From Pirellulales bacterium (GTDB lineage Bacteria; Planctomycetota; Planctomycetia; Pirellulales; DATAWG01): a stretch of DNA of 34,144 nt. The notes below the pieces were generated by a model. It did no database searches. It saw only the letters and a program-made list of their open reading frames with translations, and was not told where the DNA came from. Shown here in pieces: positions 16,854 through 30,615 of the stretch. The position numbers and the translations under genes were made by a program. Numbering within the stretch: position 1 is the stretch's first letter; every line of letters starts with the position of its first letter. The DNA is taken from the NCBI GenBank assembly GCA_035939775.1, contig DASZFO010000356.1, forward strand, positions 1-34,144. Direction: 5' to 3'.

Positions 16854-17903
16854 TTGATTTATGGCGCGAATGGCTACACCGGCGAGTTGATCGCGCGGGA
16901 GGCGGTGCGGCGCGGGATGCAGCCGATTCTCGCAGGTCGCAGTTCAGAGGCGATCGGCCGCCTCGCCGCCGAGTTGAATTGCCCGAGCCGATCATTCGCG
17001 CTAGGGTCCGCCGCGGCGACTGCAGCGCATCTGGCCGGAGTCCGCGTGGTGCTGAATTGCGCCGGGCCGTTTTCGGCCACCGCCGGGCCGATGATCGAGA
17101 CTTGTCTGACCGCCAAGGTCAATTACTTGGACATCACCGGCGAGATCGATGTCATTGAAGCAGCGGCCCGGTTGCACGAGCGGGCTGTCGCGGCCGGGAT
17201 CGCGATCATCCCGGCCGTCGGTTTCGACGTTGTGCCGAGCGACTGCCTGGCGGCTATGCTCGCGGCGGCTCTTCCCTCGGCCACGCACCTGCAACTGGCC
17301 TTCACCGGTGGGCCGATCAGCCGCGGCACGGCGAAGACCCTGCTGGACGTGCTTCCGCACGGTGGCCGAGTGCGCATCGATGGCCAGATTCGCCGCGTGC
17401 CCATTGCGTGGAAGACTCTTGAAGTGCCGTTTCCGAAGCGAAAGCGTTCCGCGGTCACAGTCCCCTGGGGAGACGTGGCCAGCGCATTTCATTCGACCGG
17501 CATCCCGAACATCGAGGTCTATGTGGCGATGCCACTGCCAGAGATTCGCCGAATGCGGCGGATGAAGTGGCTCCTGCCGCTATTGAGGTTTGGTCCGTTT
17601 CGTTGGATCTTGCAACGCGTAATTGAGTCGCGAATCACCAGTCCGTCGGCTGCCCAGCGCGAGGGGCAACAAGCGTCGCTGTGGGGTCGAGCCAGCGATG
17701 CGGCCGGCAGATCGGTCGAGGCAACGCTCGTCGTTCACAGCGGCTACAAGTTGACCGCGCTTACCGCGCTGGCCAGCGCCGATCGCGTTCTCGCGGGCAA
17801 TGTTCCCCTCGGATTCTCGACGCCATCGCGTGCTTTTGGGAAAGAGTTCATCCTGTCGATTGCCGGAACAGAATTGAAAAGGAGCGATCGACTCACCAAG
17901 TGA
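16854..17903 (+). CDS. Saccharopine dehydrogenase-like NAD(P)-binding oxidoreductase
   Basis: A 349-residue protein with an N-terminal Rossmann motif GANGYTGELIAREAVRRG (4-21), then AGRSSEAIGRLAAEL and the FVLNCAGPFS-like segment VVLNCAGPFSATAGP. Next come YLDITGEIDVIE and AVGFDVVPSDCLAAMLA. This is the pattern of saccharopine-dehydrogenase-family trans-acting enoyl reductases and similar lipid or sugar oxidoreductases. The substrate cannot be inferred. The TTG at 16854 is the only start near the glycine motif, and reading is open upstream into the Rieske gene, so a slightly earlier non-ATG start is possible. The gene converges with the sugar transporter gene and overlaps it by 11 bases. Confidence 0.85.
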   Translation: MIYGANGYTGELIAREAVRRGMQPILAGRSSEAIGRLAAELNCPSRSFALGSAAATAAHLAGVRVVLNCAGPFSATAGPMIETCLTAKVNYLDITGEIDVIEAAARLHERAVAAGIAIIPAVGFDVVPSDCLAAMLAAALPSATHLQLAFTGGPISRGTAKTLLDVLPHGGRVRIDGQIRRVPIAWKTLEVPFPKRKRSAVTVPWGDVASAFHSTGIPNIEVYVAMPLPEIRRMRRMKWLLPLLRFGPFRWILQRVIESRITSPSAAQREGQQASLWGRASDAAGRSVEATLVVHSGYKLTALTALASADRVLAGNVPLGFSTPSRAFGKEFILSIAGTELKRSDRLTK

Positions 17904-20043
17904 CGGCGTCGATGTTGTCCTTATTGAACGCGACCGGGGCGCCGAGAATAATGTTGTCGCCTTCGATTTCGAGCTTGCCGAGGCGGCCGGCGGCGAACGA
18001 TTTGTCCCCCGGCTTGAGCGCGCCGCTGGCGAGCGCGTCGGCTGCCAAGACGGTCGCGTAGCCAAGGTCCATCGTGTTCCAGAGGATCACGGTCTCGGTG
18101 ATCCCCTCGTGGACATAGGTCTTGTTGTCCCTGGGCAATCCCAGTCCGACGACTTTCACGTCGGTGCGGCCCGATTGCTTCACCGCCTCGGCCGCGCCGG
18201 GCACGGCAGGGGAGCAGATGGCCATGATCAGCTTCACTTTCGGGTAGGCGTTCAAGATCGCCGTGGCCTCCTGCTTCGCCTTGTCTTGCTTGTCGTCGCA
18301 AGGGCGGAGCACGGCCATCTTGATCTGCGGATACTTTTCCGCCCGCCGGGCTTCGATCCGCTTCTGCCATTCGATCATGTTCGCCGCCGTGAGCGAGGCC
18401 GTGATGATCGCAAACTCCCCTTCGCCGTTCATCACTCGGGCCGCATTATCCATGAGGGCTCGGCCGATGCCGTCGGGCGTGGCCTGGTTGACGAAGAAAT
18501 CGCGAGCGTCGGGATCGGCGTCGGAATCCCAGGTGACGATTTTGATGCCGCGGTCGCGAGCGCGGCGCAGGGCGGTGGAAATCCCCTCGCGGTTTTCGAC
18601 TGCCACGGCGATCACGTCCACGCCGCGGGTGATCCAAGTCTCGACGATCTCGTTCTGCTTGGCGGGGTCCGGCTCGCGCGGGCCGTCCCACAACAGCTTG
18701 ACGTTTAACTGCCGAGCCGCCTCCTCGGCGCCCGCTTGGCAGGCGATGAAGTAGGCATTTCCCTTGCTCTTCGGCATCATCGCGATCGTGAGCGGCTTAC
18801 GTTTGGCCGAGTCGCCCGCACGTTCGGTTGTTTCGCCATTCTGCGGCTTCGCGGAATCCGTGGCGCCCGGCGAAGAACTTCCCGATTCCTTCGGCAGTGA
18901 ACGGACCAGCAGCCAATTGCTCGCGGCAATGATCACGGCTCCGAGCAAGATCACGCAACTCAACGCAGCCACTTGTGAGTTCTTCATCGACGATTCCTCG
19001 GGGATGATTTTGGATTGTGGATTGTGGATATTGGATTGTTGTGCCGTGCCGCCTTGCGAAGTCCTTGCCGTCGAATCCAAAATCCGTACCACGATCGTAA
19101 CCAACAGCAGCACGCCCGTCATGATCCCGGCCAATTCCGACGGCAGGTCCGAAAGCTGGAGGCCTTTCTTGAGGACCGAGATGATTAGCAATCCGAGCAG
19201 CGTGCCGGGCACGGTGCCGCGGCCGCCGAAGATCGACGTGCCCCCCAGCACCACCGCCGTGATCGCCAGCAATTCATAGCCGGTGCCGGCGTCTGACTTG
19301 GCTTGGCCCAGGTGGGCGACATAGACGATCGACGCCACGCCGGCGGTCACTCCGCTGAGTAGATACACGAGAACAATTCGCCGCTGGACCGGAATCCCGG
19401 CGTAGCGGGCGCCCTCGGGCGAAAAGCCGATGGCAACGAGAGCCCGGCCGATGATCGTGCGGTGCATCAGCAACCAGAAACCGGCGATCGCGAGAAGAAA
19501 CAGCGGGAGCTGAGCCGGAAGGAGATCGAAAACGTAGCCGTTGCCCAAGAACAGAAATGGGTGCTTGAGCGGGACGGTGAAATTCTGCACTCCGCCGGTG
19601 ATACCTTCCGCCAGCCCGCGAAATAGCGACATCGACCCGAGCGTCACGATCAGCGGTGGGATCCTAAGCCGCGTGATCAGCAGGCCATTCAGCAGGCCGG
19701 CGGTGGTTCCCACCGCGAGCGCCCCAATGATCGCGCCGGCCAAACCGGGCGCGAAGCCGATCGCGCTATGAAAGTCTTTGTCGAGCCACAGCTTTCCAAA
19801 GACCACGGCGCATAGCCCCATCAGCGAGCCGACGGAAAGATCGATTCCGCCGCTGATGATCACCGGCGTCAGGGCCAGCGCCAGCAACCCGATCTCGACG
19901 CTCACGCGAAGAACTTCAAATGCGTTTTCACTGCGCAGAAAGTTCGTGCCGATGGCAGAGAACAAAGCGATCTCGAGCGCCAGCACCATGATCAACATGA
20001 GTTGCTGACTCGATGCGCCGCGCGAGTTTGATTTCGTCAACAT
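17893..20043 (-). CDS. Sugar ABC permease fused to sugar-binding protein (rhamnose-type)
   Basis: A 716-residue fusion. Residues 1-352 are an RbsC-type permease, with about ten helices, the ISGGIDLSVGSLMGL motif near 63-77 and GGTSIFGGRGTVPGTLLG. Residues 353-716 are a complete periplasmic binding protein of the RhaS/LsrB type: a membrane anchor (SCVILLGAVIIAASNWLLV), a polar linker, then LTIAMMPKSKGNAYFIACQAGAEEAA and VDVIAVAVENREGISTALRRARDRG. The joint is encoded by an AATCCACA-type repeat with no stop codon. An internal ATG at 18987 has a GAGGAA site six bases upstream, so the binding protein could also be made alone. Topology allows the fusion: a cytoplasmic permease C-terminus, then the anchor, then the periplasmic domain. 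It is the last gene of the rhaA operon. Confidence 0.85.
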   Translation of the reverse strand: MLTKSNSRGASSQQLMLIMVLALEIALFSAIGTNFLRSENAFEVLRVSVEIGLLALALTPVIISGGIDLSVGSLMGLCAVVFGKLWLDKDFHSAIGFAPGLAGAIIGALAVGTTAGLLNGLLITRLRIPPLIVTLGSMSLFRGLAEGITGGVQNFTVPLKHPFLFLGNGYVFDLLPAQLPLFLLAIAGFWLLMHRTIIGRALVAIGFSPEGARYAGIPVQRRIVLVYLLSGVTAGVASIVYVAHLGQAKSDAGTGYELLAITAVVLGGTSIFGGRGTVPGTLLGLLIISVLKKGLQLSDLPSELAGIMTGVLLLVTIVVRILDSTARTSQGGTAQQSNIHNPQSKIIPEESSMKNSQVAALSCVILLGAVIIAASNWLLVRSLPKESGSSSPGATDSAKPQNGETTERAGDSAKRKPLTIAMMPKSKGNAYFIACQAGAEEAARQLNVKLLWDGPREPDPAKQNEIVETWITRGVDVIAVAVENREGISTALRRARDRGIKIVTWDSDADPDARDFFVNQATPDGIGRALMDNAARVMNGEGEFAIITASLTAANMIEWQKRIEARRAEKYPQIKMAVLRPCDDKQDKAKQEATAILNAYPKVKLIMAICSPAVPGAAEAVKQSGRTDVKVVGLGLPRDNKTYVHEGITETVILWNTMDLGYATVLAADALASGALKPGDKSFAAGRLGKLEIEGDNIILGAPVAFNKDNIDAVTW
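18985..18999 (-). promoter_or_regulatory. Internal ribosome-binding site and start for the binding-protein half
   Basis: On the minus strand, GAGGAA (18999-18994) precedes an in-frame ATG (18987-18985) by six bases. The ATG begins MKNSQVAALSCVILLGAV, a normal lipoprotein-free signal or anchor sequence. This is what a separate binding-protein gene would look like. Confidence 0.65.
19011..19041 (+). repeat. TGGATTGTGGATTG-type short repeat inside the fusion gene
   Basis: About four copies of TGGATTGT or TGGATATTGG in 31 bases. On the coding strand it reads as CAATCC/AATCCAC units and encodes QSNIHNPQSKI in the linker between the permease and the binding protein. The low-complexity sequence probably removed or replaced an original stop codon. 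Confidence 0.7.
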
Positions 20044-20085
20044 GCTGGGTGCTTCACCGCGTCACGATCTCCGCTCGCTCACGCT

Positions 20086-20105
20086 CCGGTTCGCAAGCGA
20101 ACCGG
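20086..20105. repeat. Palindrome CCGGTTCGC-AA-GCGAACCGG
   Basis: A perfect 9-base inverted repeat with a 2-base loop, between the two permease genes of the sugar transport operon. The rest of this 165-base gap holds degenerate GACCTCC repeats (about 20166-20202). Both are dispersed-repeat types; the hairpin could attenuate or stabilise the transcript of the distal gene. Confidence 0.75.
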
Positions 20106-20208
20106 CTAACGCGAGTCCTCTGGCCTCCGACACGATCCATTCCGCCGCAAGCGGCGAAGCTAACACGACCTCCGACCTCCAATTTCTGACCTCCGATCTC
20201 CGGCCATT

Positions 20209-21135
20209 TCACCGTTTCCGCCCGAGCCCGCCGGTCGCAACGGCCAGGAGGATGATCACCCCTTGCAGGGCCTTTTCCCAGGCGGCATCGATTTGTAGAA
20301 ACACGAATGCACTTCCGATCGTGCCGAGCAGCAACACTCCCAACAGGCTGCCGATCAGATTGCCGCGGCCGCCCGAAACCGTCGCTCCGCCGACGACCAC
20401 CGCGGCGATCACCTTGAACTCGAAATCTCGCCCAATGACCGGCTCGACGGTCGCGTCTTGGACCGCGCTCAGCAAGGCGGCTAGCCCGGTGAGCGCACCC
20501 ATCAGAACAAAGACGTTGAATACGACGCGTCGCGGCCGAATCCCCGCCAGCCGGGCCGCCTCCTCGTCGGAACCGGTCGCGTAGACAGCCCGCCCTGCCG
20601 CTAAATAGTTCATCGCAAGCAGGAACACCGCTAACACGCCGACCGCCAATTCCACGATTACGCGCTCGCCGCGCTGTTGCCCGAAACCCAGCCATTGGAA
20701 CTGATCAGAAAGATTGCGGACCTGCTCGCCGCTGCGACTCCAACCGAGCGATTCGCGCAGGATCACCATCGTGGCCAGCGTGACGACGATCGAAGGGAGC
20801 TTCAGCCCGGCCACCAGCGCGCCGTTCACGGCCCCTAATGCCATTCCGACCGCGATCGCCGCGGCGGCCACGAGCGGCGTCGGCCAGCCGCGCTCGGCCA
20901 AGAGCGCCGCCACGATCGCCGAAACGGAAAGCTGCCAGCCGATGGAAATGTCGATCTGCCGGGCGACGATCACGAGCGTCATCCCAACCGCCGCGACCAG
21001 GACGGGCGCGGAATAGACCAGCGTATTCCAGAACTGCCCGGTCGCATAGAAATCGGGGCGCGCGATCCAGAGCACCAACAGCAAGAGGGCATAAGCCCCG
21101 GCCACCGACAATTCGCGAAGGTGACGATGCATCAT
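20209..21135 (-). CDS. Sugar ABC transporter permease (RbsC/RhaP type)
   Basis: A 308-residue permease with about nine or ten helices. Family motifs are VARQIDISIGWQLS (about 58-71), GLKLPSIVVTLATMVILR (about 111-128) and VVGGATVSGGRGNLIGSLLG (about 252-271). It pairs with the permease half of the following fusion gene to form the heterodimeric membrane channel of a carbohydrate-uptake (CUT2) transporter. Its ATG overlaps the stop codon of the ATPase gene (ATGA at 21132-21135), so the two are translationally coupled. The company of rhaA makes L-rhamnose the likely substrate. Confidence 0.92.
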   Translation of the reverse strand: MMHRHLRELSVAGAYALLLLVLWIARPDFYATGQFWNTLVYSAPVLVAAVGMTLVIVARQIDISIGWQLSVSAIVAALLAERGWPTPLVAAAAIAVGMALGAVNGALVAGLKLPSIVVTLATMVILRESLGWSRSGEQVRNLSDQFQWLGFGQQRGERVIVELAVGVLAVFLLAMNYLAAGRAVYATGSDEEAARLAGIRPRRVVFNVFVLMGALTGLAALLSAVQDATVEPVIGRDFEFKVIAAVVVGGATVSGGRGNLIGSLLGVLLLGTIGSAFVFLQIDAAWEKALQGVIILLAVATGGLGRKR

Positions 21136-22739
21136 GCCGCCGACACTCCTTCGGTGTGCCCGAGCGCCTGGGCCAGCAGCTTCTCTTGCGTCGCCTCGGC
21201 CCGATCCAATGTGGCCACGATGGTGCCGGCGTGCATCACCGCGATCCGGTCGCTCATGCCGAGGATCTCCGGCATTTCGGACGAGATCATCACGATCGCC
21301 AAACCCTGCTGGGCGAGTTCACATAGTAGCCGATGAATCTCCGCCTTCGATCCGACGTCGATCCCCTGCGTCGGCTCGTCGACGATCAACACTTTCGGCT
21401 TGGTGGCCAGCCAGCGCGCGAGCGCTACCTTCTGCTGGTTGCCGCCGGACAGGTTTTCGACCGGGGCCTCGATCGACGCGGTCTTGATCCCGAGGCGGCT
21501 TACGAAAGTCTCCGCCACGGATCGCTCGCGCGACGAATCGAGCCAGCCCAGCGTCGAGATTCGCCGCAAGATGGCGAGCGTCGCGTTCGCTGCCACGGGC
21601 ATTTCCAGGATCACGCCATGCCGCCGCCGGTCTTCCGGCAGATAGGCGATCCCGAGTTCGACCGCCTGGGCCGGAGACGAAATCCTCACCGGTCGGCCGC
21701 CTAAGAGAATCTGCCCACGGTCGGCCGGCGTGATGCCAAATAGCACTCGCGCTAACTCCGTGCGTCCCGCGCCAACCAGACCGGCCAATCCGAGAATTTC
21801 ACCGGCCCGAACTTGAACCGACACGTCCCGCACTCCGGACTCGCGGCAATTCACTCCCCGCGCCTCGAAGAGCACTTCGCCCTGCGTTACTTCAATCTTC
21901 GGAAACACGGCGGACAGTTCGCGCCCGACCATCATTTGGATCAACTCGCCGCGGGAAACGTCCTTCATCGCGCGGGTGCCGACGAGCGCTCCATCGCGCA
22001 GGGCCGTCACGCGGTCGGCGATTTGCGCGAGTTCTTCCAATCGATGGGTGACATAGATGATTCCGACCCCTTGCGAGCGCAATTGCCGGATCACGCCGAC
22101 CAGATGCTCGACCTCGCGCTCGGAGAGCGAAGCCGTCGGCTCATCCATCACTAGAATCCTGGCGTCGGCCCCAAGCGCTCGGGCGATTTCGACCAATTGC
22201 TGCTCGGGCATCGAGAGCGTGCGGACATCGGCATCGGGACGAATCCGTGCCCCAATCCGCTCAAGCAATTCAGCCGCCCGCCGTCGCCGCCGGCCCCAGT
22301 TGATCCATCGCCACGCCCCGCCAAACCGCCGGGGACTGTCCCCTTTTTTGAAGCGGGCACCATCGCCAGATGGTCGGGAAAAAAAGGGGACTGTCCCCCT
22401 TTTCCCAGGCGGTTTTCGACCAGGCTCCAAGCCAATTGCAATATTCTCCGCAACCGACAGATCAGGAAACAGCGCCGGCTGCTGATAAATGGCCGCAATG
22501 CCAAGCCGCCGCGAAATGAGCGGATCGTTCGCTGCGACGAGCCGGCCACTGACTTCAAGCTCTCCGGCGTCCGGAGCTACGGCGCCGGTGATGATCTTGA
22601 TCAGCGTCGATTTGCCGGCCCCGTTCTCGCCGATGAGCCCGTGCATCTCGCCGGCGAATAGCTCGAACGAAACCCCCTTGAGGGCCCGCACGCCGCCGAA
22701 TGATTTGGCAATGCCGGTTGCCCGGAGCACGACATCCAT
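21132..22739 (-). CDS. Sugar ABC transporter ATPase (two-domain, RbsA/RhaT type) with in-frame repeat insertion
   Basis: A 535-residue CUT2 ATPase with two nucleotide-binding domains. First domain: Walker A GENGAGKST (37-45), signature LSMPEQ (175-180) and Walker B ILVMDEPTAS (195-204). Second domain: the degenerate Walker A LVGAGRTEL, LSGGNQQKV and VLIVDEPTQGIDVGSK. Residues about 105-139 (LEPGRKPPGKRGTVPFFSR...) are encoded by a GGGGAC-core dispersed repeat lying inside the gene. The normal family sequence resumes at WINWGRRRRRAAELLERIGARI. The insertion falls between the Q-loop region and the helical subdomain, a surface-exposed place, and the frame is intact, so the protein may still work. 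It starts four bases after the rhaA stop. Confidence 0.9.
   Translation of the reverse strand: MDVVLRATGIAKSFGGVRALKGVSFELFAGEMHGLIGENGAGKSTLIKIITGAVAPDAGELEVSGRLVAANDPLISRRLGIAAIYQQPALFPDLSVAENIAIGLEPGRKPPGKRGTVPFFSRPSGDGARFKKGDSPRRFGGAWRWINWGRRRRRAAELLERIGARIRPDADVRTLSMPEQQLVEIARALGADARILVMDEPTASLSEREVEHLVGVIRQLRSQGVGIIYVTHRLEELAQIADRVTALRDGALVGTRAMKDVSRGELIQMMVGRELSAVFPKIEVTQGEVLFEARGVNCRESGVRDVSVQVRAGEILGLAGLVGAGRTELARVLFGITPADRGQILLGGRPVRISSPAQAVELGIAYLPEDRRRHGVILEMPVAANATLAILRRISTLGWLDSSRERSVAETFVSRLGIKTASIEAPVENLSGGNQQKVALARWLATKPKVLIVDEPTQGIDVGSKAEIHRLLCELAQQGLAIVMISSEMPEILGMSDRIAVMHAGTIVATLDRAEATQEKLLAQALGHTEGVSAA
22323..22428. repeat. GGGGAC-core dispersed repeat, copy D, inside the ATPase gene
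   Basis: Two GGGGACTGTCCCC palindromes (about 22331 and 22387) flanked by AACCGCC on the left and a full arm on the right (minus strand GGAGCCTGGTCGAAAACCGC). The left outer arm is truncated compared with copies B and C. It is translated in frame on the minus strand. Confidence 0.9.
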
Positions 22740-22743
22740 CGGG

Positions 22744-24024
22744 CTATCTTTCGCTTGACTCGCGTTTGGACAATACGGCGTTCTCGTATGCCTTGACTTC
22801 GTCGAGCCACGCCGGCCCGATCGGAACGTTTTGCCGTAGGCAATAATAGTCCCAGATCGCGCCGAATGGCATCGACATTAGCTCTTCTAGCATGGCCAGC
22901 CGAGCGGTGAAATCGCCGGCGACCTCGAACTCCCGCAGCGATTGGATCGGCTCGATCAGCGCGAGCAAGAGCGATTTGAGAATCGCGCGGGTGCCGATCA
23001 CCCATGCGGCCACGCGATTGATGCTGGCGTCGAAATAATCCAAGCCAATATGGACGCGGTCGAGATAACCGCCGCGGACGATTTCTTCGGCGAGCGATCG
23101 CAGATCGTCGGACAGGATCACGACGTGGTCGCTGTCCCAGCGCACGCCGCGGCTGACGTGCAGCAGGATTTCGTCGAGATGGGTGAGCACGGAGCTGATC
23201 TTGTCGGCGATGCTTTCGGTCGGATGATAATGCCCCGCGTCGAGGCAGAGCAGCTTTTTGTTTTCGATCGCGTAGCCAAGATAGAACTCGTGCGAGCCGA
23301 CGACGTAGCTTTCCGAGCCGATGCCGAACAGCTTCCCTTCGACTGCATCGCGCTGATGTCGTGAATCGAACGGCTCGCTGAAAACTTCGTCGAGCGATTG
23401 TTTGAGCAGCTCTCGCGGCGTTTTTCGATCCACCGGGACGTCTTTGTATCCATCCGGAATCCAAAGGTTCGTGATGCAGGGGGAGCCGAGATCGCGCCCC
23501 ATCCGTTCGGCAATCTGGCGGCAGGCGATCCCGTGGCGGATCCAGAAGCGGCGGATGCCTTCGTCGCGATGGGCGAGCGTGAACCCGTCGGCAGCGAGCG
23601 GATGAGAAAAGAACGTGCCGTTGAAGTCCAAGCCCAGTGTCCGGGATTTGGCCCAGTCGATCCAACCCGCGAAGTGCTCGGGCGCCAATTCATCGCGCTC
23701 GACGTGCCTGCCGTGCGTCTCGGCGTAGATAGCGTGTAGATTCACGCGATGCCGGCCGGGAATCAGCCGCAGCGCTCGGTCGATGTCGGCCCGCAGTTCG
23801 TCGGCCGTGCGGGCTTTGCCGGGATAATTCCCGGTGGCTTGGATTCCGCCGCCCGTCAGTCCGACTTCCGATTCGAAGCCGCCGACGTCATCCCCCTGCC
23901 AGCAGTGCAAGGAAATCGGCACTTCGCGCAACACGGCGAATGCGGCATCGACGTCAACGCCCAAGTCGGCGTATCGTTGGCAAGCCGACTCATAGGCCCG
24001 CTGAATCTGCCCGTCGTTCATCAT
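22744..24024 (-). CDS. rhaA: L-rhamnose isomerase
   Basis: A 426-residue enzyme, close to the 419 residues of the E. coli protein, that converts L-rhamnose to L-rhamnulose in the cytoplasm. Landmarks are [14 protein letters not shown] (38-51), [14 protein letters not shown] (57-70), [80 protein letters not shown] and [17 protein letters not shown]. Metal and sugar ligands of the family lie in these blocks. Two adjacent ATGs (24024 and 24021) can start it. It is the first gene of an operon continuing into the sugar ABC ATPase and permeases. The downstream rhamnulose kinase and aldolase are not in this window. Confidence 0.96.
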
Positions 24025-28968: not shown

Positions 28969-29161
28969 AGGGCTGCCAAATTCGGCATGGAAGTCGAGAT
29001 TGTCTCGTCACGACCCGCGAGCAAGTGGGCGGCAGTGAAGTTCGCCGTGGAGCACTCGGCCGCGGCGCGTCACGCCCAAGGATGCCTTCGGGTGGATGCA
29101 TACGTGGCGCCATGGAACGGTTCCGGCGCCGGCACCGAACTGCTGACGAGGAGACCCAGCC

Positions 29162-29938
29162 ATGCTCGTTCTATCCCGTCGCCCTGGCGACAAGATCGTG
29201 TTCCCCGACTTGGATATACTGGTCGAGATTCTGCAATCGACCGGTAAAAACGTGCGCGTCGGCATCGATGCGCCCTCGGACGTGGCCGTCTTACGGCATG
29301 AATTGACTCGCACGGACGAACATCGGCGGGAAGCATCGCCGCGGCGAAAATCCCCCGACAATCACCGGCTGCGAAACAAGCTAAACACCGCGCGGCTGGC
29401 GCTATGCTTGCTCGAGAAGCAGATGGAGGCAGGCCTGCCAGATGCGGCCAAATTGACGCTGGCCCGTGCGCTCGAGGAATTTGCGGCCGCGGCCAACGAG
29501 CTTCAGCCCGCAGAAGATCGTCACGAGCAGGCCGCGAAACTGCCTCGGCTGCGTGCCCTGCTGGTCGAGGACGATGCGAATGAGAGTGAACTGCTGGCGG
29601 GCATCTTGCGGATGAGCGGGATCGTCGTCGATACGGCCGGCGACGGCTGGCAGGCGCTCGATTACCTGGCCCATCACGAGCGGCCGGACGTGGTGTTGCT
29701 CGATATGCGGATGCCGCGGTTCGATGGCCCTTCGACGATCTCGGCCATTCGGCAGAACCCAGAGTTGCAAGGGCTCAAGGTCTATGCAGTCAGTGGCAGC
29801 ACGCCGGACGAAGTGGGCCTGCCAATGGGCCCCGGCGGAGTCGACCGCTGGTTCTCGAAGCCGCTCGATCCGGGCCGACTGGTGCGCGAGATGAAGCACG
29901 AACTCGATATGCCGCACGCGTCGGCCTTGGCGACGTGA
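29162..29938 (+). CDS. CsrA RNA-binding domain fused to a response-regulator receiver domain
   Basis: A 258-residue two-domain regulator. Residues 1-48 are a CsrA/RsmA domain (MLVLSRRPGDKIVF ... VRVGIDAPSDVAVLRHEL), including the RNA-contacting N-terminal strand and R45 (R44 in E. coli). Residues about 65-125 form a helical linker (NHRLRNKLNTARLALCLLEKQM) that may dimerise. Residues about 130-250 are a complete receiver: acidic pair D137/D138, phosphoacceptor D181 in VVLLDMRMP, S211 and K233 in WFSKPLD. CsrA controls translation and stability of mRNAs by binding GGA sites; phosphorylation of the receiver should switch RNA binding. GAGGAG eight bases before the ATG sets the start and contains a possible CsrA site (ACGAGGAG). 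No kinase gene is adjacent. Confidence 0.92.
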   Translation: MLVLSRRPGDKIVFPDLDILVEILQSTGKNVRVGIDAPSDVAVLRHELTRTDEHRREASPRRKSPDNHRLRNKLNTARLALCLLEKQMEAGLPDAAKLTLARALEEFAAAANELQPAEDRHEQAAKLPRLRALLVEDDANESELLAGILRMSGIVVDTAGDGWQALDYLAHHERPDVVLLDMRMPRFDGPSTISAIRQNPELQGLKVYAVSGSTPDEVGLPMGPGGVDRWFSKPLDPGRLVREMKHELDMPHASALAT

Positions 29939-29975: not shown

Positions 29976-30108
29976 GGGTGCCACTGCTGGCTTGTCCAGC
30001 AGTGACGCACTTTCGCAAATTCTTGATCTTATCTTCGAAGGACCTGTGAACGCACGGTTGTAAATCCAGCGGTGCGGCTCACTGCTGGACAAGCCAGCAG
30101 CGGCACCC
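29976..30108. repeat. GGGTGCCACTGCTGGCTTGTC inverted repeat pair
   Basis: The 29-base arms at 29976-30004 and 30080-30108 are reverse complements with one mismatch; each contains the smaller palindrome-like CTGCTGG...CCAGCAG. The 75-base centre has no gene. The element lies between convergent genes (stops at 29938 and 30160), so it may act as a terminator. Confidence 0.88.
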
Positions 30109-30159
30109 GAAACCGCCTTCCCGGTTCATCGGCGGCGACATTTGCGCACTAACTGGCGC

Positions 30160-30615
30160 TCATTCGGCGCGGCGATCGCGAAGCGCTCGCAGCAAGCCAT
30201 GCAGATCGTCGGCCTTGAGCGGCTTGACGAGATGTTCGTTGAAGCCCGCTTCTAGGGAGGCACGGCGATCATCCTCGTCGCCGTAGCCGGTCAACGCCAC
30301 GAGATAGATATCACCTTTGGGCAACTCTTCCCGAATGTGGCGAGCGACCTGATGGCCGTCCAGGTCGGGCAGCCCAATATCGATAAAAGCTACGTCCGGC
30401 CGCTCTCTCAGAATCATCTCGACTCCCGCGACTCCATCCGCCGCCGCGGTTACGAAACTGCCGTCCAACTCCAAGAGCATTTTCATCAATTCGCGGGCGG
30501 CCGAATTGTCTTCGACGACGGCCACCCGCAGCGCCGTGTCTCGCGGCGAGGAATCTTGGGGTTTGTCGGATTGGCTACCGTTATGGCGATCCGAAGCGAT
30601 CATGAACTTGTCCAT
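30160..30615 (-). CDS. Single-domain response regulator (receiver)
   Basis: A 151-residue protein consisting of a disordered N-terminus (about 1-28) and a CheY-like receiver: E35/D36 acidic pair (VVEDN), phosphoacceptor D79 (FIDIGLPDLDG), T109 (VALTGYG) and K131 (LVKPL). It has no output domain. It should act by protein-protein contact or as a phosphate relay or sink. The ATG at 30615 follows AGGAG with a 9-base gap. It is convergent with the CsrA-receiver gene and divergent from the HtrA-like gene. Nearby receivers may share one unlinked kinase, but this is only suggested by proximity. Confidence 0.9.
   Translation of the reverse strand: MDKFMIASDRHNGSQSDKPQDSSPRDTALRVAVVEDNSAARELMKMLLELDGSFVTAAADGVAGVEMILRERPDVAFIDIGLPDLDGHQVARHIREELPKGDIYLVALTGYGDEDDRRASLEAGFNEHLVKPLKADDLHGLLRALRDRRAE

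Follow-up and report, generated by a model that had tools for sequence, protein, structure and literature searches.

In the window analysed here, a 34,144-nucleotide stretch of a Pirellulales genome (Planctomycetota), the gene at 29162..29938 (+) encodes a 258-aa protein in which a CsrA domain, a two-helix hairpin resembling the DHp domain of histidine kinases and a receiver follow one another. That this architecture exists and is conserved is near certain, and the CsrA domain is very probably under two-component control. The control is somewhat more likely than otherwise to run through a four-step phosphorelay (H1 - D1 - H68 - D181), where D1 is the C-terminal receiver of partner hybrid histidine kinases. 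The fuller version, in which the last two steps lie inside the CsrA protein and gate mRNA binding while H68 and the D1 of the partner are retained or lost jointly, is given even chances. These results suggest that in planctomycetes an outside signal is wired straight into an mRNA-binding protein.

The gene begins with ATG, 8 nt downstream of a Shine-Dalgarno-like AGGAG (29149..29153, +). GGA is found 5' of the start in 112/119 full-length family members, a count that takes in the Shine-Dalgarno sequence. An AlphaFold2 model of the protein, computed with 68 family members as input, has a mean pLDDT of 87.4 and shows in succession CsrA-like strands (11-36), a helix (46-54), two further helices (65-89 and 93-114) and a REC fold. 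Because the whole architecture is kept over 65 genera, a chance or frameshift fusion is excluded.

The CsrA domain (residues 1-50; 29162..29311, +) matches PF02599 with 55.4 bits against a Pfam cut-off of 27. Full-length members were aligned in two rounds, 72 first and later 119; in the alignment of 72, R6, G34, A37 and R45 are all invariant (72/72) and the loop carries a hallmark peculiar to the family, F14-P15. R6 and R45 are the equivalents of the CsrA residues that contact RNA, and since both are invariant the CsrA part of the fusion protein, judged by its sequence, likely binds RNA. Known CsrA proteins are dimers. The NCBIfam equivalogs for stand-alone CsrA, TIGR00202 and NF002469, scored 44.7 and 39.4 bits, under their cut-offs of 73 and 70.1; the CsrA domain is therefore present, but the protein is not a CsrA ortholog. 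Its own genome holds 11 CsrA matches, the fusion protein and ten others. Two matches stand in tandem at C350:30254-30746 and another is found at C372:26908-27458; the stand-alone csrA of contig C372 adjoins the only FliW of the genome. The ten other matches and the FliW beside csrA make the fusion protein part of a wider Csr network, as one of its branches.

The receiver (residues 131-249; 29552..29908, +) matches PF00072 (Response_reg) over residues 133-243 with 64.8 bits (Pfam cut-off 30.2). A Foldseek search with the model gave, at E <= 0.001, 558 matches in the PDB; receiver domains make up nearly all of the 50 listed. The phosphoacceptor aspartate D181 (29702..29704, +) is kept in 70/72 members, S or T at position 211 in 70/72 and K233 in 69/72. 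E136 and D137 form the metal-binding acidic pair (position 136 is E or D, and position 137 is D, each in 70/72), and position 138 varies (D 45, N 12, Q 9). The first-pass annotation, made from the sequence alone, had described an intact CsrA domain with R45 joined to a complete receiver, which is borne out by two Pfam matches at about twice their cut-offs. It named D181, S211 and K233 correctly and set the acidic pair one residue off, at D137/D138. Among the receiver helices, helix 1 is the best conserved and helices 4 and 5 the least. Helix 1 is the part of a receiver that docks on DHp in known complexes, and the conservation pattern would fit a receiver docking internally on its own hairpin, unlike the usual receiver dimer.

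The segment between the two domains, taken earlier for a helical linker, is helical, but it has the look of a DHp-like signalling module with a near-invariant histidine. Its two predicted helices (65-89 and 93-114; 29354..29503, +) carry the near-invariant motif H68-x-x-R-N72-x-L. H68 (29363..29365, +), the candidate phosphotransfer histidine, aligns with the H-box histidine of kinases and is found in 69/72 members, N72 in 67/72 and L74 in 68/72, level with D181 and K233 of the receiver. The motif, H-x-L-R-N-x-L-N in the hairpin, is similar to the DHp H-box. In hhalign, the hairpin profile matched 58 DHp domains of the fetched loci with 97% probability and a score of 49.3 (controls: at most 18.1 over 100 column shuffles, 11.4 reversed), with the histidines in register and the asparagines too. 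When the profile was run against all six frames of its own genome, the hairpin itself came first and H-boxes from two genuine histidine kinases came next. The hairpin is thus akin to kinase DHp (HisKA) domains in its H-x-x-[RK]-N-x-L box, its two-helix form and its profile, and we regard it with high confidence as DHp-type. It differs from them in that single sequences stay under the Pfam cut-off: ten single hairpins gave three HisKA matches (best E 0.001), and the best single-member score for PF00512 was 19.6 bits against 26.9. The window protein itself has no Pfam match to PF00512 or to an ATPase (HATPase) domain, and the acid at H+1 is not conserved; the hairpin is therefore unlikely to be an autokinase.

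Membership in the Spo0B family was considered and rejected. SPOB_a (PF14689) has no Pfam match in the window protein and only weak matches in 2/10 single hairpins (best 14.6 bits, cut-off 28.1), and the hairpin profile aligned to a single SPOB_a sequence with 5.5% probability, so that in the tests run the hairpin is nearer HisKA than SPOB_a. A search of the window protein for Hpt (PF01627) was negative at E up to 1, and the Hpt domains of the genome are located elsewhere. With 58 residues the hairpin is a short query: repeat proteins along with designed helices came up in a PDB sequence profile search, and Foldseek matched it to hairpins of other proteins, Rop and rubrerythrin among them.

A search for the architecture across planctomycetes, as the first-pass annotation had proposed, uncovered a family of 119 full-length members. 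A survey of 294 genomes from the whole phylum found full-length matches in the window's own class only. Within that class, 101 of 398 genomes, belonging to 65 genera, hold a match with E <= 1e-38; almost all of these matches are full length, and some genomes contain up to four members. A scan of 84,980 species used peptide patterns from the receiver part; of the best 80 loci, 42 span the protein from CsrA start to receiver end and all 42 are named Planctomycetota, and the loci of other phyla among these 80 matched the receiver part alone. Full-length examples include Bythopirellula polymerisocia, Adhaeretor mobilis, Lacipirellula limnantheis and Rhodopirellula rubra.

H68 is present in 103/119 members and missing from 16/119, 13 of which retain an intact receiver. 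Among the first 72 members the three without H68 all had a broken REC, but a tie between the two losses fails in the wider sample of 119 because of these 13. Two minimal members of ~190 aa (L241:13851-14432, -, and L245:5740-6309, +) have CsrA directly on the receiver with no hairpin, and each has a CheB-CheR kinase without a C-terminal receiver at most 1 kb away. Three others (L039:8450-9319, +; L117:131-976, -; L250:6927-7823, +) have lost both H68 and the receiver catalytic residues and, by their sequence, are apparently phosphorylation-independent or decaying copies.

Conserved partner kinases were looked for and found adjoining the gene in most relatives. The density of HATPase domains in the first kb around the gene is ~7-10x that at 4-7 kb. 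The nine partners scanned are of two types, CheB-CheR-PAS-HisKA-HATPase-REC (about 1300-1400 aa) and PAS- or DUF4118-HisKA-HATPase-REC (534-1079 aa). A D1-type receiver is encoded within 800 bp of the gene in 53/72 loci, and since all four relative orientations occur, the linkage is not simply one inherited operon. The acceptor D and the K are kept in 59/59 D1 receivers. No kinase was found within 1.2 kb of 29/103 H68 members, some of them at contig ends. At four loci (L088, L113, L255 and L258) the partner kinase and the D1 receiver occupy overlapping or adjacent frames, either through sequencing frameshifts or through real gene splitting.

This separation of kinase and D1 is at its most extreme in the window, where a D1-like receiver is kept and no kinase lies next to the gene. 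This receiver (30160..30615, -) stands alone, 228 bp from the CsrA-fusion gene and convergent with it; it has 151 aa from its ATG, in a frame open to 30840, and scores 78.8 bits with Pfam. Its identity to most partner D1 receivers of other genomes is 35-56%, and its best BLAST matches and nearest rows in a tree without branch support are D1 receivers. Because other receivers of its own genome reach 40-49%, its orthology with D1 is likely, not proven. It would, on that footing, be a member of the relay.

The presence of H68 goes with the kind of kinase nearby. Where a kinase lies within 1.2 kb, the nearest one has a D1 for 73/74 H68 members (69 fused, 4 with an adjacent or frame-shifted receiver) and has none for 8/9 members without H68; the exception, L252, has no H68 and a hybrid kinase nearby. 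One locus, L227, holds both kinds ~10 kb apart: its H68 member is beside a 1342-aa hybrid kinase, and its H-less member is beside a 1089-aa CheB-CheR kinase that stops after the ATPase domain. Fisher's test of H68 against D1 gives p 2e-9, uncorrected for phylogeny. When the linker columns are left out of the tree, about six changes of H68 are counted, three of them forced, but only two or three independent contrasts come with kinase data; nearly all ways of pairing them show none against the rule. With two or three contrasts a sign test cannot reach significance, so after phylogenetic correction the association is not significant, and it is the weakest joint of the relay argument.

From these observations we infer the following phosphotransfer steps, their direction and their effect on RNA. 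Phosphate on H1 of a hybrid histidine kinase would first move to D1, the C-terminal receiver of that kinase, then to H68 of the ATPase-less hairpin, the likely second histidine, and finally to D181 in the receiver that shares a protein with the hairpin. Phosphorylation of D181 would change mRNA binding by the CsrA dimer. In the window, the stand-alone neighbour receiver would serve the D1 step, taking the place that Spo0F has in its relay, and the gene of the kinase would lie elsewhere. Members lacking H68 would act as ordinary two-component regulators. The relay is the simplest way to account at once for a histidine conserved in an ATPase-less hairpin, for the additional receiver of the partner and for the fact that both are absent together. 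It is also favoured by H68 and N72 being as conserved as the receiver catalytic residues, by D1 retaining acceptor D and K in 59/59 and by the window keeping a D1-like receiver. The direct two-component control proposed in the first-pass annotation is thus upheld in part: for the CsrA domain it is well backed by the architecture and by the adjacent kinases of most relatives, but the linkage points to a multi-step phosphorelay and not to a simple kinase-receiver pair.

The strongest alternative, which is possible but rather unlikely, is direct phosphorylation of D181 by the kinase, with the hairpin serving dimerisation and REC-CsrA coupling and D1 being a side branch or phosphate sink of the hybrid kinase. 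The 13 H-less members with an intact receiver, two of them with no linker, must indeed work without H68. However, a hairpin for pure dimerisation does not explain a histidine in 103/119 members with N at +4, nor does this scheme explain why H68 is associated with D1 kinases. Improbable is a built-in phosphatase, in which the H-x-x-x-N hairpin would reset D181~P and either the kinase or small phosphodonors would supply the phosphate. In HisKA kinases the H+4 position is linked with phosphatase activity, here it is N in 67/72 members, and the acid at H+1 is not kept; but such an activity does not predict that H68 is linked with the D1 of the neighbouring kinase. A CsrA part that binds no RNA and acts in dimerisation or as a protein platform with protein-protein output (as in FliW-CsrA contacts) could draw on the family's own F14-P15 hallmark, on the ten other CsrA matches of the genome and on the one FliW beside the stand-alone csrA of C372, but is very improbable with the RNA-contact equivalents R6 and R45 at 72/72.

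The relay proposed here would resemble the four-step Kin - Spo0F - Spo0B - Spo0A relay in the order of its steps, in a DHp-like phosphotransferase without ATPase activity and, in the window, in a stand-alone receiver as intermediate; it would differ in carrying its third and fourth steps on the CsrA protein itself and in having RNA, not DNA, as output. ANTAR-type regulators such as EutV also combine a receiver with an RNA-binding output; the window protein shares this pairing but differs from them by its N-terminal CsrA output and the DHp-like hairpin in between. Decoy RNAs or FliW control stand-alone CsrA, a protein of ~60 aa, and the BarA-UvrY and GacS-GacA two-component systems reach this global regulator indirectly, via decoy RNAs. 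The window protein has the complete domain of CsrA/RsmA with R6 and R45, but there it stands alone, whereas here it is fused to hairpin and receiver. To our knowledge, Csr biology is almost unstudied in Planctomycetota.

As a widespread CsrA-hairpin-receiver family linked to hybrid kinases, it would be a direct signal-to-mRNA switch. Members with H68 beside D1 kinases and members without H68 beside D1-less kinases also form a natural comparison for the gain or loss of a phosphorelay step, in one case inside a single locus. A classification cited by PMC2222644 contains response regulators with a 'CsrA' output, catalogued by 2007, so the bare REC and CsrA pairing was already on record. A literature search that took in few subscription papers uncovered nothing about the hairpin, its partner kinases or a relay, and no paper pairing 'CsrA domain' with 'receiver domain'.

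Two palindromes of nearly the same sequence, ccactgctggcttgtccagcagtg and cactgctggacaagccagcagc, lie between the CsrA-fusion gene and the convergent receiver gene, at 29976-30110; they may be terminators or a dispersed repeat. An Rfam search of the window found no known RNA. Further upstream, a cluster at 17893-24024 (-), named by eye from its translation, looks like a sugar ABC transporter with an ATPase and permeases. One of the permeases is fused in frame to a substrate-binding protein in a 716-aa ORF, and the cluster adjoins a probable rhamnose-isomerase-like protein, likewise named by eye from its translation.
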